NCBI GenBank assembly: GCA_016195095.1
Contig: JACQAE010000035.1
Coordinates: forward strand, 1-46,097
Reading direction: 5' to 3'
Source: Pseudomonadota bacterium
GTDB taxonomy: Bacteria; Pseudomonadota; Alphaproteobacteria; Rhizobiales; Xanthobacteraceae
DNA length: 46,097 bases
Part shown: positions 1,026 to 7,865 of the stretch, in pieces
How positions within the stretch are numbered: position 1 is the stretch's first letter
How the letters are laid out: the number at the start of each line of letters is the position of its first letter
Position numbers and translations under genes: made by a program
Notes under the pieces: generated by a model
Seen by the model: only the letters and a program-made list of their open reading frames with translations
What the model was told of the DNA's origin: nothing
Databases searched by the model: none

Positions 1026-2423
1026 ATGGCGGACCTGGCGAGGAAATTCGACGTTCTGGTCGTCGGCGGGGGTAACGCTGGGCTATGCGCCGCCATCAGC
1101 GCGCGCCGCGCCGGAGCATCGGTGCTCGTCGTTGACGCGGCGCCGAAATTCTATCGTGGCGGCAATACACGTCATACGCGCAACGTGCGCTGCGCGCATG
1201 ATGGCGCGAGCGATACGCTAAGTGGTCCTTATCCGCGGGATGAATTCTGGGACGATATAAGGCGCGTGACAGGCGGCGAAACCAACGAGCCGCTTGCGCG
1301 GCGTATGATCGATGAATCCAGCGACCTGCGGCGATGGCTCATCGCCCACGGTGTGCGCTTTCAGCCGCCGCTTGGCGGCACGCTTGGTCTTGGGCGGACG
1401 AATTCGTTCTTTTTGGGCGGCGGGCGCGCAATGCTCAACGCGCTCTATCGAACCGCCGAGGCGCTTGGGGTCGAAATCGTCTATGACGCGGACGTCATCG
1501 ATCTCGACGTCGATGCCGGTGTCTTCAAGTCGGCCAGCGTGAAAATCGACCAGCGTCCATGCGTCGTGCGCGCGGCGACGCTGATCGCGGCCAGCGGCGG
1601 GTTCGAGGCCAATTTCGAATGGCTCAAGGCCTGTTGGGGAGAGGCGGCCGACAATTTCCTCATTCGTGGCACTCCCTACAATCGTGGCACCGTGCTCAAG
1701 ATCCTGCTCGATTGCGGCGTCGGCCAGGTCGGCGACCCAACCCAATGCCATGCCGTGGCCATTGACGCGCGGGCGCCGAAATATGACGGCGGCATCATTA
1801 CACGGCTTGATTGCGTCGTATTCGGCATCGTGGTCAACCGCGATGCGCGGCGATTCCATGACGAGGGCGAGGACGTGTGGCCCAAGCGCTACGCGATTTG
1901 GGGACGCTTGGTGGCCGGCCAGCCGCAGCAGATCGCCTACATCATTTTCGATGCGTCTTCGCTCGAGCTGTTCATGCCCTCGCTGTTTGCGCCACTGTTG
2001 GCCGGCAGCATCGGCGAACTGGCCGGCCGTTGCGACCTTGATCCGACCGCGCTCGAAAAAACCGTGCGCGACTTCAATGCGGCGGTACGTCCGGGGACAT
2101 TCGACCACAGCGTGCTCGACGACTGCCGTACCGAAGGCCTCATCCCGCCCAAGACGCATTGGGCGCGCCGCATCGAGACCGCGCCGTTCTATGCCTATCC
2201 GGTGCGTCCCGGCATCACCTTCACCTATCTCGGCACGCGCGTGGACGCCCAGGCGCGCATGCTCATGGCGGATGGGCGGCCGGCGGCCAATATGTTTGCC
2301 GCGGGCGAGATCATGGCCGGCAACGTGCTCGGGCGCGGCTATGCCGCTGGCGTCGGCATGACCATCGGCGGCGTGTTCGGGCGAATCGCGGGGCAGGAGG
2401 CAGCCAAAGGTGCGCGAAACTAG
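1026..2423 (+). CDS. tcuA: FAD-dependent tricarballylate dehydrogenase
   Basis: MADLARKFDVLVVGGGNAGLCAAISARRAGASVLVVDAAPKFYRGGNTRHTRN; GGGNAG FAD motif, C-terminal AAGEIMAGNVLGRGYAAGVGMTIGGVFGRIAG; followed directly by tcuB. Confidence 0.88.
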   Translation: MADLARKFDVLVVGGGNAGLCAAISARRAGASVLVVDAAPKFYRGGNTRHTRNVRCAHDGASDTLSGPYPRDEFWDDIRRVTGGETNEPLARRMIDESSDLRRWLIAHGVRFQPPLGGTLGLGRTNSFFLGGGRAMLNALYRTAEALGVEIVYDADVIDLDVDAGVFKSASVKIDQRPCVVRAATLIAASGGFEANFEWLKACWGEAADNFLIRGTPYNRGTVLKILLDCGVGQVGDPTQCHAVAIDARAPKYDGGIITRLDCVVFGIVVNRDARRFHDEGEDVWPKRYAIWGRLVAGQPQQIAYIIFDASSLELFMPSLFAPLLAGSIGELAGRCDLDPTALEKTVRDFNAAVRPGTFDHSVLDDCRTEGLIPPKTHWARRIETAPFYAYPVRPGITFTYLGTRVDAQARMLMADGRPAANMFAAGEIMAGNVLGRGYAAGVGMTIGGVFGRIAGQEAAKGARN

Positions 2424-2427
2424 GACG

Positions 2428-3651
2428 ATGTCGGGTGCCACGGAGACGTTTTCGCCGCGCGATCCGTGCGTGGGTCGGATGAGTGGCCACGGTTTGCGAG
2501 ATCACGGGGCTGAGGTGAATTCCGGCGCACTCGCCGAGGCCGAACGGTTGATGACTATCTGCAATTCCTGCCGCTACTGCGAGGGATTGTGCGCGGTGTT
2601 CCCGGCCATGGAGATGCGTCGCGCGTTTTCCGCCGGCGATCTCAACTACCTCGCCAACCTATGTCACGGCTGCGGTGCCTGTTACTATGATTGCCAGTTC
2701 GCGCCGCCACATGCGTTCGACGTCAACGTGCCGCGCAATTTTGCCGCGCTGCGCGCGCAGTCCTATGCGACCTATGCGTGGCCGCGCGCCCTGTCCGGAC
2801 TGTTCGCGCGCAACGGGCTCGCCGTCGCCAGCGTCGCGGCGCTCAGTGTTGCTGCGTTTGTAATCGGATTTGTCGCCGGCAACGACCCCGCCGCGCTTTT
2901 CGCCGTGCAAAGCGGCGCTGGCGCATTCTACCGGTTGATGCCACACGGCGCGATGGCGGCGATTTTCGGCGCGGCCTTCGTCTATGCGATTGTGGCGATC
3001 GGCATGGGCGTGCGCATGTTCTGGTGCGACATCGATCGACGCGGCGCCAAGCCGACCTGGCGCTCCCTTTCGCGGGCAATGACGGATGCCGGGCGGCTGC
3101 GCAACCTCGACGGTGGCGGTGTTGGCTGTTTCAATGAAGACGAGCGCCCCAACGATCGGCGGCGGCTCTATCACCATTTCACATTCTACGGCTTTCTCCT
3201 CTGCCTTGCCGCGACCTCGTTTGCGACCGCCTACCATTACCTTCTCGGCCGCGTGGCGCCCTACGCCTGGTATGACCTGCCCGTTATTCTTGGAACCATC
3301 GGGGGGGTAGGGCTTCTGATCGGCCCGTTTGGGCTATTGGCGGCGAAGTGGCGGCGCGATCGCGCCATTGAGCATCGCGCACGCCTGGGCATGGACATCG
3401 CGTTCCTGGCGATGCTGTTCGCGACCAGTCTGACGGGCCTCGCACTCCTCGCCCTGCGCGAAACGGCGGCGATGGGAATGCTGCTCGCGCTCCATCTCGG
3501 CGTCGTGTTCGGGCTGTTCATGACGCTGCCCTACGGAAATTTCGTGCACGGCGTCTACCGTTTTGCCGCGCTGGTGCGCTACGCGCTGGAGCGCGAGACT
3601 GAGCAGGGGGCTGCGGGCGCCCGCGCGCCGCAAGCCGACGCCGCCGCTTGA
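2428..3651 (+). CDS. tcuB: Tricarballylate utilization 4Fe-4S / membrane protein TcuB (CitB)
   Basis: CNSCRYCEGLCAVFPAME and LCHGCGACYYDCQFAPPHAFDVNVPRNFAALR cysteine clusters followed by TM segments; starts 4 nt after the tcuA stop. Confidence 0.88.
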   Translation: MSGATETFSPRDPCVGRMSGHGLRDHGAEVNSGALAEAERLMTICNSCRYCEGLCAVFPAMEMRRAFSAGDLNYLANLCHGCGACYYDCQFAPPHAFDVNVPRNFAALRAQSYATYAWPRALSGLFARNGLAVASVAALSVAAFVIGFVAGNDPAALFAVQSGAGAFYRLMPHGAMAAIFGAAFVYAIVAIGMGVRMFWCDIDRRGAKPTWRSLSRAMTDAGRLRNLDGGGVGCFNEDERPNDRRRLYHHFTFYGFLLCLAATSFATAYHYLLGRVAPYAWYDLPVILGTIGGVGLLIGPFGLLAAKWRRDRAIEHRARLGMDIAFLAMLFATSLTGLALLALRETAAMGMLLALHLGVVFGLFMTLPYGNFVHGVYRFAALVRYALERETEQGAAGARAPQADAAA

Positions 3652-3684
3652 TACCGCGGTCGCCGCTGGCAACAGCAGCAAGGG

Positions 3685-4659
3685 TTATTCCTGCGGCTTG
3701 ATCCCGGCGTCGCTGGCAATCTTCACCCAGGTCGCGATCTCCTGCGCCTGGTAGGGCCGGAACGCGGCCGGCTCGCGCAGCTCGATGGTGAATCCGAGGC
3801 GCTCGATCTGCTGCGCCACGTTCGCCTTGCGCAGGCTGGCGGCAATTTCCCGCGAGAGCCGCTCGAGAATGGGCGCGGACGTTGCCGCCGGCGCAAAGAA
3901 CGCCGTCCACGAGGACGCATCGGCGCCGTCGACGCCCTGCTCGGTCAGGGTCGGTACCTCCGGCAGGCGTGGATTGCGCTTGGCGCTGCCAATGGCGACT
4001 GCGCGCATCGCGCCACCTTGGATCTGCGCGATCACGCTCGGCAGCGTGCTGTTTGAAATATCGATACGGCCGCCGATCAGGTCGGCAACCAGGGGCGCGG
4101 CGCCGCGATAGGGAATATGCGTCATCGTGATGCCGGTGCGCGTCATGAACAATTCCGTGGAGAGGTGCGATCCCGAACCGATGCCGGTCGAGCCGTAATT
4201 AAGCGTGCCGGGCTTTTCCTTGGCCAGCCGAATGACGTCCTGGATCGACCGCGCCGGCAGCTCGTTACGCACGACGAATACATGTTCGAAGGCACCGGCG
4301 CCGGCGAGCGGCGCGAAATCCTTCACCGCGTCGTATCCCGGTGACTTGAGCATGAACATGTTGTTGCCATGCGTCTGGTTGTTGCCAAACGTAATGGTGT
4401 GGCCGTCGGGGTCGGCTTTCGCGACCGCGCGCGTGCCGATCGAGCCCGAGGCGCCGGACACGTTTTCGACGACGACGTTCTGCCCCAACGCGCTCGCCAT
4501 GTCCGCGGCGACAATACGCGCGATGGCGTCGGTCGGGCCGCCGGCCGGGTAGGCGACGATCAAGCGGATGGCGCGCGAAGGCGCCCAGCCTTGTGCCAGC
4601 GCCGGGCGCAGGAACGTGGCGGCCGCCAGGCCGGACGCAAAAATACGGCGCGTCAACAT
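3685..4659 (-). CDS. Bug family (TctC-like) tripartite tricarboxylate transporter substrate-binding protein
   Basis: MLTRRIFASGLAAATFLRPALAQGWAPSRAIRLIVAYPAGGPTDAIARIVAADMASALGQNVVVENVSGASGSIGTRAVAKADPDGHT: classic Bug/TctC signature. Confidence 0.9.
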   Translation of the reverse strand: MLTRRIFASGLAAATFLRPALAQGWAPSRAIRLIVAYPAGGPTDAIARIVAADMASALGQNVVVENVSGASGSIGTRAVAKADPDGHTITFGNNQTHGNNMFMLKSPGYDAVKDFAPLAGAGAFEHVFVVRNELPARSIQDVIRLAKEKPGTLNYGSTGIGSGSHLSTELFMTRTGITMTHIPYRGAAPLVADLIGGRIDISNSTLPSVIAQIQGGAMRAVAIGSAKRNPRLPEVPTLTEQGVDGADASSWTAFFAPAATSAPILERLSREIAASLRKANVAQQIERLGFTIELREPAAFRPYQAQEIATWVKIASDAGIKPQE

Positions 4660-4927
4660 CGTCGTCCTCCGTCAAGGCGGCTGGTTTGGACCACTCAATC
4701 CCGGCCGCGCGTTGCCGTCGCCGCGCGGTCTCGGACTTAAAGCACTTCCGCGCCGCCTTGAATATCCCCTCCAGCGTCGTTCCACTTGTCCAATGGCGCC
4801 TGCACGGCCGCGCGCCTGCGGCACATTCCGTGGCCGACACGGCGTTGCGATGAACTGGTCAACGGTATGCCAGTCGGATAGGATTTCGCGCAGGCGCGCG
4901 GCGAAGTTCCGCGGGAGGACATCCGCA

Positions 4928-6541
4928 ATGCCGCGATTGCCAATATGGTCGCTCTTGATGCTTGCGCTCCTCGGTGGCGCGAGCCTGGCTGCGCCCACGC
5001 AACGACGCGTCGCGCTGGTGATCGGCAACGCCGAATACAAGTTCGCCTCGCCGCTCGATAATCCAGCGAACGACGCGCAGGCCATGGCGCGGGCGCTGCG
5101 CGGCCTCGACTTCGACGTCACACTGGCGCTCAATGTGGACAAGGCCGCGTTCGAGCAGCGTATCCGCGACTTCGCAAATTCCTTGACCGGCGCAAACGCA
5201 GCGGTATTTTTCTACGCGGGACACGGATTGCAGGTTGATGGGCGCAACTACATGGTGCCTGTCGACGCGCAGGTCGCCGACGAAGCCGACCTGCCATTCG
5301 CCCTCGTGGCCGTTGATATCGTCCTGCACCGGCTCGCGCATCATCGCATCACGAATATCGTCTTTCTCGACGCCTGCCGCGACAATCCTCTGGGCGAGAA
5401 ACTTGCCGGCGCGTTGGGCGCCCGTTCCAAGGCGGTCGGGCAGGGTCTTGCGTCGCTCCATGCGGGCGTCGGAACTCTGATTTCATTTTCGACGCAGCCG
5501 GGCAATGTGGCGCTCGACGGCGACGGCAAAAACAGCCCGTTCGCGCGGGCGCTGCTCGATCATATTTCGACGCCGAACATCGATGTGCTCGGCATGCTCA
5601 AGCGCGTTCGCCGCGACGTGTTCGAGCGCACCAACCAGAGCCAGGTTCCTTGGGACAATTCCTCGCTCATTGACGAATTTTTCTTCCACACGGTCGTGGC
5701 GCGGGAGCGCCAACCACCCTCCCTGCAACCGCTACCGCAGCCACAACCGGACCCCAAGCCTCAGCCCCCCGCGCGCGACCATGATCTTTCCCTGGTGCTG
5801 CCGCCTGAAAACAATACTCGCCCGGTACTGACCGGCCGGCCGCCGGCGCATCCCTGCGATTCGATCGCCGCCAGCGCGACCGATCCCGAGCGCATCGCGC
5901 CCGGCACGACGTTCGGCGACCTCGATGGCACGGCGGGTGTGCGCGCCTGCCGCGCGGCGCTCGCCAAGTATCCCAATACCCCGCGTTTCGAGTTCCAGCT
6001 CGCGCGTTCGTTGCACCAGAGCAAGCAATATGACGAAGCGGCCAGCCTCTATCGCAGCCTCGTCGAGCGCGGCTATCTCGCCGCGCTTACCAATTATGGC
6101 TGGCTGCTCAATTTCGGTCAGGGCGTGGCGCAAAATCAGGTGGCGGCGACGCGCCTGCACCTGCTTGCCGCGCACCAGGGTGATACGTTCGGAATGTTCA
6201 ATGCGGCGATGGCCTATGACAGCGGCAGCGGCCTGCCCTACAATCCGGCGCAGGCGGCGCACTGGATCTATGCCGCGTTGCGGCTTGGGCACGAATATTC
6301 AATCCGGCAGATGAGCGGGGACGCCGCCGGCTGGACGCGTGATTTCCGCGTCGAATTGCAACGCCTGCTGCGGCGTGCGGGCGTTTATGCGGGGCCGGCC
6401 GATGGGGCATTTGGTCCCGACCTGTGGCAAGCGATTCGTCAAGTCCAGACGCTGCCCTTCGCGCCGAACCCGGGTGGCAACGTGCCAACGCATCGCTTCG
6501 ACCCGAAATCGATCCCAGTCAACGCGCCGCCGCCGCGATGA
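4928..6541 (+). CDS. Secreted caspase-family (C14-like) protein with Sel1-like repeats and C-terminal peptidoglycan-binding-like segment
   Basis: Signal peptide MPRLPIWSLLMLALLGGASLA; RRVALVIGNAEY; His motif FFYAGHG; Cys motif FLDACRDNPL; Sel1-like region; LQRLLRRAGVYAGPADGAFGPDLWQAIRQVQ; tail RFDPKSIPVNAPPPR. ORF extends further upstream, but 4928 fits a signal peptide and a GGGAGG RBS. Confidence 0.85.
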   Translation: MPRLPIWSLLMLALLGGASLAAPTQRRVALVIGNAEYKFASPLDNPANDAQAMARALRGLDFDVTLALNVDKAAFEQRIRDFANSLTGANAAVFFYAGHGLQVDGRNYMVPVDAQVADEADLPFALVAVDIVLHRLAHHRITNIVFLDACRDNPLGEKLAGALGARSKAVGQGLASLHAGVGTLISFSTQPGNVALDGDGKNSPFARALLDHISTPNIDVLGMLKRVRRDVFERTNQSQVPWDNSSLIDEFFFHTVVARERQPPSLQPLPQPQPDPKPQPPARDHDLSLVLPPENNTRPVLTGRPPAHPCDSIAASATDPERIAPGTTFGDLDGTAGVRACRAALAKYPNTPRFEFQLARSLHQSKQYDEAASLYRSLVERGYLAALTNYGWLLNFGQGVAQNQVAATRLHLLAAHQGDTFGMFNAAMAYDSGSGLPYNPAQAAHWIYAALRLGHEYSIRQMSGDAAGWTRDFRVELQRLLRRAGVYAGPADGAFGPDLWQAIRQVQTLPFAPNPGGNVPTHRFDPKSIPVNAPPPR

Positions 6542-6671
6542 ATCGCAGGCGCTTGCGCCGTGCCCTAGCCTGTGCCGGCGCGCCCTGTGCCGCCCAGCAC
6601 GATCGGCACGCCGAGGCAATTGATTTGGTCGAATTTTCCGTTATGAACAGCTCCACCTCGCGGCCCAAGCC

Positions 6672-7865
6672 CTATCGCGGCGCCGGTGTATTCGCGGGAA
6701 TGTTCTTTGGGTCGAAGCGCGGCGGCGCCGCGTTGACGGCCGGCACTTCGCGGTTAAAACGCGGCGGCTCCGCGTTGACGGGGATATTCTTGTTGTCGAA
6801 TCGATCGGGACCGGCGCCGGCCGCCACGGCGCAAATTGACTCGCGCGCAACGCATTCGCCACCGCCTTTCTGGCGCCCGCAATAGGCGAGCACGTTTTCC
6901 TCCGCGGAATTCGCCGAATCTCCGATGCTGGTAAAGGCCTGCGTGTAGGTTGTCGTACGCCGCCGTCCGGTCCGTTCGCGGTATCGGGTCGTGGCAATGG
7001 CGATGCAGCGCGGGCTGGCGACGGAGGCGATCTTGAAATCCGCGCGCGAGCGGCGGCGCAGCTTGTCGGCGGCATCCGCCTCGCTGCTGCGCCGGGTCGG
7101 TCCGCTGATGACGCTGTAATTGCCAAAGCCGTCAAAGGCGATTGCCGCCCAGGACGACGGCGCCGGCGTTGCATCGATCTTGAGCACGGTGGCCTTGGTC
7201 AATTGTCCGGTCGCCGGCAATCCGGCCCATTTCTGGAAGTCGGTCAGCGCCTGCGACGTCTCCGGCGTGAGCTCGCCACTGATGCGCGGCACATGCAAGC
7301 CGAAATCGTAAAGCCGATGCTGGATGCGCAACACCAGATCGGGCGAGGGCCGCACGGTCTCGTCGTCGCCGCCGCCATCCGCGCACCAACGCGCCTGCGC
7401 TTTCGCCGCATCCTCCGCGCTCGCCGCGCCGCCTTCGATGCCGCGATAGGTCCACGCGAAAAACGGCTGCTCGCCCTTGGAAGTCTGCGCACGCATGACG
7501 GCGCTGATCTTGGCGAGAGTAACGTTGGTACCGGCGATGTCGCGCTGGTCAAGCTTGCAGCGCAGAATGACAATGTCATCCGCCGCCGGGCGGGTGCAGA
7601 TTTCTGCTTGCAGGCGCGCGGCAAGCTCGAACACGCGCTGCGCCTTGTCCGCGTCGCCGGCGGCGCGTGCTTCGATCGCGCGCGCGAGAACGGCGACGAC
7701 AAGGCCGACGGTCGCTCGGTCCGCGCACAGAAATGGACGATCGTCGCCTTCAAGCGCGGCGTGCAGCCGCAGGGTTGCGGTTTGGGCAAAGAACGGTGTC
7801 GCCATCGTGACGCAAGCGAAACAGGCAACGCCACCAATGATCAACCGGGACAAGCGCACGGACAT
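6672..7865 (-). CDS. Secreted peptidoglycan-binding-domain protein with DUF4189-like domain and C-terminal 14-aa repeats
   Basis: Signal-like N-terminus; LRIQHRLYDFGLHVPRISGELTPETSQALTDFQKWAGLPATGQLTKATVLKI (PG_binding_1-like); SSWAAIAFDGFGNYSVISG...CIAIATTRY (DUF4189-like); tail RFDNKNIPVNAEPP-RFNREVPAVNAAPP-RFDPKNIPANTPAPR. Confidence 0.75.
   Translation of the reverse strand: MSVRLSRLIIGGVACFACVTMATPFFAQTATLRLHAALEGDDRPFLCADRATVGLVVAVLARAIEARAAGDADKAQRVFELAARLQAEICTRPAADDIVILRCKLDQRDIAGTNVTLAKISAVMRAQTSKGEQPFFAWTYRGIEGGAASAEDAAKAQARWCADGGGDDETVRPSPDLVLRIQHRLYDFGLHVPRISGELTPETSQALTDFQKWAGLPATGQLTKATVLKIDATPAPSSWAAIAFDGFGNYSVISGPTRRSSEADAADKLRRRSRADFKIASVASPRCIAIATTRYRERTGRRRTTTYTQAFTSIGDSANSAEENVLAYCGRQKGGGECVARESICAVAAGAGPDRFDNKNIPVNAEPPRFNREVPAVNAAPPRFDPKNIPANTPAPR

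Follow-up and report, generated by a model that had tools for sequence, protein, structure and literature searches.

Bacterial orthocaspases are among the closest described relatives of the protease reported here. In the parts consulted of two surveys of these enzymes (Asplund-Samuelsson 2012, PMC3501461; Klemencic 2019, PMC6426788), Sel1 repeats were found in 6% and putative peptidoglycan-binding domains in 1.6% of sequences, N-terminal signal-like helices were noted, and neither a convergent dedicated partner nor a C-terminal peptide common to an orthocaspase and its neighbour was described. Little is known of what orthocaspases cut in bacteria or of what controls them, though alphaproteobacterial genomes hold many of these enzymes. 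MALT1, a eukaryotic and cytosolic paracaspase with Ig domains, is another relative of the C14 type. Its specificity for Arg at P1 has been credited to three acidic residues, D365, D462 and E500, and its structure was solved with Z-VRPR-FMK, an inhibitor that likewise carries Pro-Arg (PMC4357240). More generally, characterised non-caspase C14 enzymes prefer or require Arg or Lys at P1 (PMC5756287).

The window analysed here is a stretch of 46,097 nucleotides from an alphaproteobacterium of the family Xanthobacteraceae. ORF listing placed a C14 caspase gene on the forward strand (4928-6541) and a PG_binding_1/DUF4189 gene on the reverse strand (6672-7865) as convergent neighbours, at the positions and with the signal-peptide-like N-termini reported in an initial annotation of this DNA; both signal peptides were judged by eye from the sequence. 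In the 537-residue caspase, the signal-peptide-like segment (residues 1-22, 4928-4993, with GGAGGA upstream) is followed by a p20 domain (5003-5683) recognised both by Pfam and by alignment to MALT1, the Peptidase_C14 match covering residues 26-252 with an E-value of 1.4e-42 and 146 bits against a cut-off of 21.4. Inspection of individual residues confirmed the two catalytic motifs that had been pointed out, the dyad consisting of H99 in YAGHG (5222-5224) and C150 in DACRD (5375-5377). Pfam detected no p10 domain in the caspase, and after residue 252 matched only a TPR/Sel1 solenoid region (residues 337-455, 5936-6292) and a PG_binding_1-like domain (residues 472-507, 6341-6448, E 3e-7). With a p20 domain and His-Cys dyad, no p10 and other domains after p20, the protease is by its predicted architecture a C14 enzyme of the orthocaspase type, like those of the surveys cited above in so far as they were consulted. 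The peptidoglycan-binding segment claimed for both proteins was borne out, PG_binding_1 scoring 30.9 and 39.6 bits across the caspase and its partner against a cut-off of 23. Elsewhere in the window, a 413-aa frame beside a gene for an FAD enzyme (2410-3651) had no Pfam match and may be spurious.

The partner, an exported-looking protein of 397 residues, opens with a signal-peptide-like segment (residues 1-28, by eye) and a helical/beta N-terminal region that extends to residue 170 in a low-confidence model (together 7356-7865), and Pfam matched no family in the approximately 140 N-terminal residues before PG_binding_1. The PG_binding_1 domain itself (residues 176-227, 7185-7340, E 5.9e-10) was seen by Pfam, in the structure model and, below threshold, by fold search. 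It is followed by DUF4189 (residues 239-345, 6831-7151), assigned from Pfam, alignment and model, with a predicted bbab-bbab fold and conserved Cys at 287, 329, 338 and 345. For DUF4189 the score was 25.3 bits, the cut-off being 25; the orthologs described below scored 35.6, above it (G098), and 24.3, slightly below it (G016). An AlphaFold2 model from three sequences, weak at a mean pLDDT of about 51, ran from PG-binding helices through a bbab-bbab DUF4189 domain to a disordered tail with pLDDT of about 25-31. A fold search returned nothing at E below 0.001, SleB and Slt enzymes being sub-threshold neighbours of the PG-binding domain. For the DUF4189 protein Rv1813c of Mycobacterium tuberculosis, two bbab lobes, four Cys and a WACN motif have been described (PMC10269737). 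On the low-confidence model the partner resembles this exported protein in its two predicted bbab lobes and four conserved Cys, with no WACN motif seen; it differs from Rv1813c in carrying PG_binding_1 and a tandem tail besides DUF4189, and in being paired with a caspase.

True orthologs of the partner were present in two of 101 related genomes, G016, from another genus of the window's GTDB family, and G098, from a different family of the order. In both, the caspase ortholog adjoins the partner, and the two genes meet at their 3' ends just as they do in the window. The caspase orthologs (L056:5042-6640 in G016 and L057:7750-9345 in G098) are 68% and 54% identical to the window protein, and the partner orthologs (L056:6677-7816 and L057:6280-7566) 53% and 38%. 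When all open frames of the three loci were compared with one another, the caspase and the partner, with shadow frames thereof, were the common genes, and the one other cross-locus match was weak (34% over 105 aa) and joined unlinked frames. The gene neighbourhood was thus conserved, as a convergent pair in three genomes whose surroundings are otherwise unrelated. A wider search with a partner profile, through overlapping sets of 398 genomes of the order, 399 of the family and 385 of the class, gave no new full-length ortholog, and the only match among named genomes was the MAG Hyphomicrobiales bacterium D3_Bin_17. No partner relative was found in plasmids, phages or viral contigs, and carriage of the pair by mobile elements was rejected on this ground. 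As far as these comparisons indicate, the pair is very rare (about three genomes in two GTDB families) but behaves as a unit. A general linkage of DUF4189 to caspases was also rejected, as there was no caspase-domain match around the DUF4189 hits tested. A Sel1-type match was next to a DUF4189 relative at one further locus, L114.

The two proteins of the window end alike. The caspase finishes in one copy of a 15-residue tail, RFDPKSIPVNAPPPR (residues 523-537, 6494-6538), then the stop codon, and the partner in three tandem copies, RFDNKNIPVNAEPP-RFNREVPAVNAAPP-RFDPKNIPANTPAPR-stop. These copies are 14-residue units with a boundary Arg in common between neighbours: unit 1, RFDNKNIPVNAEPPR (residues 355-369, 6759-6803); unit 2, RFNREVPAVNAAPPR (residues 369-383, 6717-6761); and unit 3, RFDPKNIPANTPAPR (residues 383-397, 6675-6719), which the stop codon follows. 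Their identity to the caspase tail is 12/15, 8/15 and 11/15, respectively, so that the description of the same 15-aa motif at both ends holds for copies 1 and 3, copy 2 being looser. This tail pair was the top-scoring ungapped 15-mer match between the two proteins, and in 200,000 shuffles of that 15-mer its best score, 65, was never reached.

We looked for the motif in about 440 genome scans, which covered two overlapping sets. A degenerate DNA pattern gave four matches within the pair (G000, the window's own genome, and G016) and two elsewhere among the 101 relatives, and the same four together with four stray matches among 339 family genomes. The stray matches (G050, G010, G432 and G578) were rejected as short or internal spurious frames; the one in G578 lies next to a stop codon, and its surroundings hold no relative of the caspase or of the partner. 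When the C-termini of every open frame in the retrieved loci were scanned under relaxed criteria, no tails beyond the known ones came up. Together these scans restrict the motif to the C-termini of the two proteins. The initial annotation had allowed that the motif might prove common in unrelated proteins, or the two genes not be neighbours in relatives; we found a motif with C-terminal bias and genes that neighbour each other in relatives, and the convergent pairing in three genomes and the pair-restricted motif support the two-protein exported module it had proposed.

The tail is known from just two pairs. In G016 the caspase tail, RWDPASIPVNAPPPR, is identical to that of the window caspase at 13/15 positions. 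The G016 partner carries RYDRDAIPANSPAPQ...RFDPKNIPLNSAPPRG, with a first unit of 21 residues that has an internal YDR and reaches its Pro-Arg end after an extension, and a last unit, RFDPKNIPLNSAPPR, identical to window unit 3 at 11/15 positions. In G098 the tail is absent from both caspase and partner. Its joint presence or absence on the two proteins is suggestive, with three pairs compared, and is not proof of a link. The G098 pair also speaks against a mandatory role for the tail: the pairing either predates the tail or does not depend on it, and the pair can work without it. The tail-less G098 partner ends in two copies of GRHLPGDQ (L057:7450-7566), so that the partner may generally carry tandem C-terminal peptides, even where it lacks the RFDP motif.

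The best solved relative of the protease domain was MALT1 (E 2e-10). In an alignment that ends before E500, and with the register counted by hand from H415 and C464, D49 (5072-5074) and D148 (5369-5371) of the window caspase correspond to MALT1 D365 and D462, the S1-type Asp residues whose roles are described in PMC4357240. MALT1 differs from the window caspase in having neither a secretion signal nor a PG-binding domain; like MALT1, which works on peptides ending in Pro-Arg, the caspase has this Asp pair, and the tail units all end in Pro-Arg, the dipeptide of the MALT1 inhibitor VRPR. The expectation of a basic P1 residue thus finds a match in the predicted S1 pocket, and the caspase could plausibly read the tails. 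The related claim, that every copy ends in Pro-Pro-Arg or Ala-Pro-Arg, is correct for this window, but the terminal Arg cannot be a cleavage site, because the protein ends there; cleavage could then take place only between units (PPR|F) or at the terminal PPR|G of G016. Moreover, about 15 conserved positions exceed what P4-P1 would need, which favours docking over cutting, and conservation of the whole 15-residue motif, including its N-terminal half, suggests that something docks on the tail rather than merely cuts it.

The shared tail probably reflects a real connection of the protease with its partner. Tentatively, we favour a reading in which an exported, wall-associated orthocaspase has a dedicated partner and binds or cleaves the tail as a recognition peptide. 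The PG-binding domains of both proteins would hold them on the wall, and the caspase would recognise the tail, R-[FWY]-[DN]-x3-[IV]-P-x-N-x2-[PA]-P-R. The tandem Pro-Arg units of the partner would then be substrates or competing ligands, cut after Arg either where two units join (PPR|F) or, in G016, ahead of the final Gly (PPR|G). The single tail of the caspase, with its free Pro-Pro-Arg carboxylate, might occupy the same site as a product-like plug or serve as an intermolecular dock. In the envelope, the partner would thus recruit the caspase, activate it or be processed by it. A built-in plug of this kind has a clan CD precedent in gingipain R, where Arg126 of the prodomain plugs S1 (PMC4357240); that plug is an N-terminal prodomain, unlike the C-terminal tail of the window caspase, for which Arg in S1 is conjecture. 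A fully developed switch, in which the envelope caspase is restrained by its own Pro-Pro-Arg tail and switched by a wall-bound partner with tandem copies, seems to us decidedly unlikely.

The conservation that speaks for docking does not by itself identify the caspase as the docking protein. The tail could instead be a shared address tag read on both proteins by a third envelope protein (an anchor, sorting factor or receptor), the caspase playing no part. We regard this as possible, if on balance improbable. It would account for conservation of the RFDPxxIPxN half, which protease subsites do not need, for the position of the tail at the extreme C-terminus in three of the four proteins, and for the repeats in the partner, as often seen in multivalent tags. 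However, the three loci have no third gene in common, and the tag was on no other protein in the scanned genomes. Nor does the tail resemble known sorting signals of the PEP-CTERM/LPXTG type: it ends at the stop codon without a hydrophobic stretch, and lacks the membrane helix and the basic cluster of PEP-CTERM-type signals, a reading we rejected for this reason.

A second alternative is that the tail moved between the convergent 3' ends by neutral or recent inverted copying of DNA and that its presence on both proteins is without function. Inverted repeats do exist between the two 3' ends, one of 46 nt at 76% and one of 20 nt at 95% that links the caspase tail with partner unit 2, and an origin by inverted copying is plausible. 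Against lack of function, the sharing is also found in another genus, in proteins with no more than 68 and 53% identity. The caspase tails of G000 and G016 are 87% identical, while p20 and the TPR/Sel1/PG-binding part both stand at 72% and the linker between domains at 25%; the last unit of the partner is 73% identical, compared with 52-63% in folded regions. Conservation falls on codon positions 1 and 2, third positions of the tails being about 40-47% identical, and from this difference between peptide and third positions we infer selection on the tail peptide. By rank the tails fall in the top 12-21% of all 15-aa windows and are not the single most conserved. In addition, tails of the same protein are closer across genomes (13/15 and 11/15) than the caspase and partner tails within G016 (9/15), which indicates that the tail was shared before the lineages split. 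No similarity was seen to extend past the stop codons in the sequences inspected, and the RNA fold of the inverted repeat is not unusual (z -1.45). With arms 222 nt apart and terminator-like sites no more frequent than in shuffles, we also rejected an RNA or terminator role for this repeat. Functionless copying is therefore unlikely; the 20-nt arms leave room for some later DNA copying and may indicate the route of the tail's first transfer. On present sequence comparisons, the tail has persisted as a peptide ever since G000 and G016 split, and an exported-looking pair with a selected tail is well supported.

The partner could also be a peptide precursor from which cleavage at Arg frees 14-residue signal peptides (FDPKSIPVNAPPPR and kin). 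The units of the window are exactly 14 residues, with Arg before each and Pro-Arg at the end, and cuts at the boundary Args would give FDNKNIPVNAEPPR, FNREVPAVNAAPPR and FDPKNIPANTPAPR. However, unit 2 has an internal Arg (FNR), the first unit of G016 departs from the pattern in both its length of 21 residues and its internal YDR, and no receptor or exporter gene is linked, which together make such a precursor very improbable. That these are ordinary adjacent cell-wall proteins whose Pro-rich C-termini are alike by composition has next to no probability: Pro-rich ends are common and other caspases in the genome have low-complexity tails, but the composition-preserving shuffles and the absence of the motif outside the pair in approximately 440 genome scans refute composition alone.

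Two known caspase-containing systems were considered and rejected. PADLOC gave a weak match of the caspase to the caspase model of an anti-phage system (4.7e-13) and none for the partner, so that no recognised defence partner is present. In polymorphic toxins with a releasing caspase, the caspase domain lies ahead of a C-terminal toxin domain (PMC3482391), and Pfam found no toxin domain in the caspase or the partner. The kinds of protein encoded by the pair are known, and the literature searched describes no orthocaspase tied to a dedicated partner by a shared C-terminal peptide under selection. A protease beside a protein that repeats the protease's own tail offers a concrete candidate for a substrate or regulator, and short C-terminal motifs common to neighbouring genes may expose enzyme-partner pairs that domain searches miss.

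Other caspase arrangements were seen among the relatives. In G097 (L119; G097:C349), a caspase gene (3579-5288) overlaps a separate secreted gene (5189-6904) with two Sel1-PG-binding-like modules, 33-40% identical to the C-terminal half of the window caspase; unlike the window, this locus has neither a nearby DUF4189 partner nor the tail. By sequence similarity, L119:3579-6904 is a split form of the window caspase architecture. The window's own genome holds 16 C14 domains, including three tandem C14 caspase genes with long low-complexity C-termini (G000:C210:2462-6801), and a 701-aa frame (L062:2314-4419; G000:C268) that joins a caspase match to a TctC-like solute-receptor end, an apparent caspase-TctC fusion.
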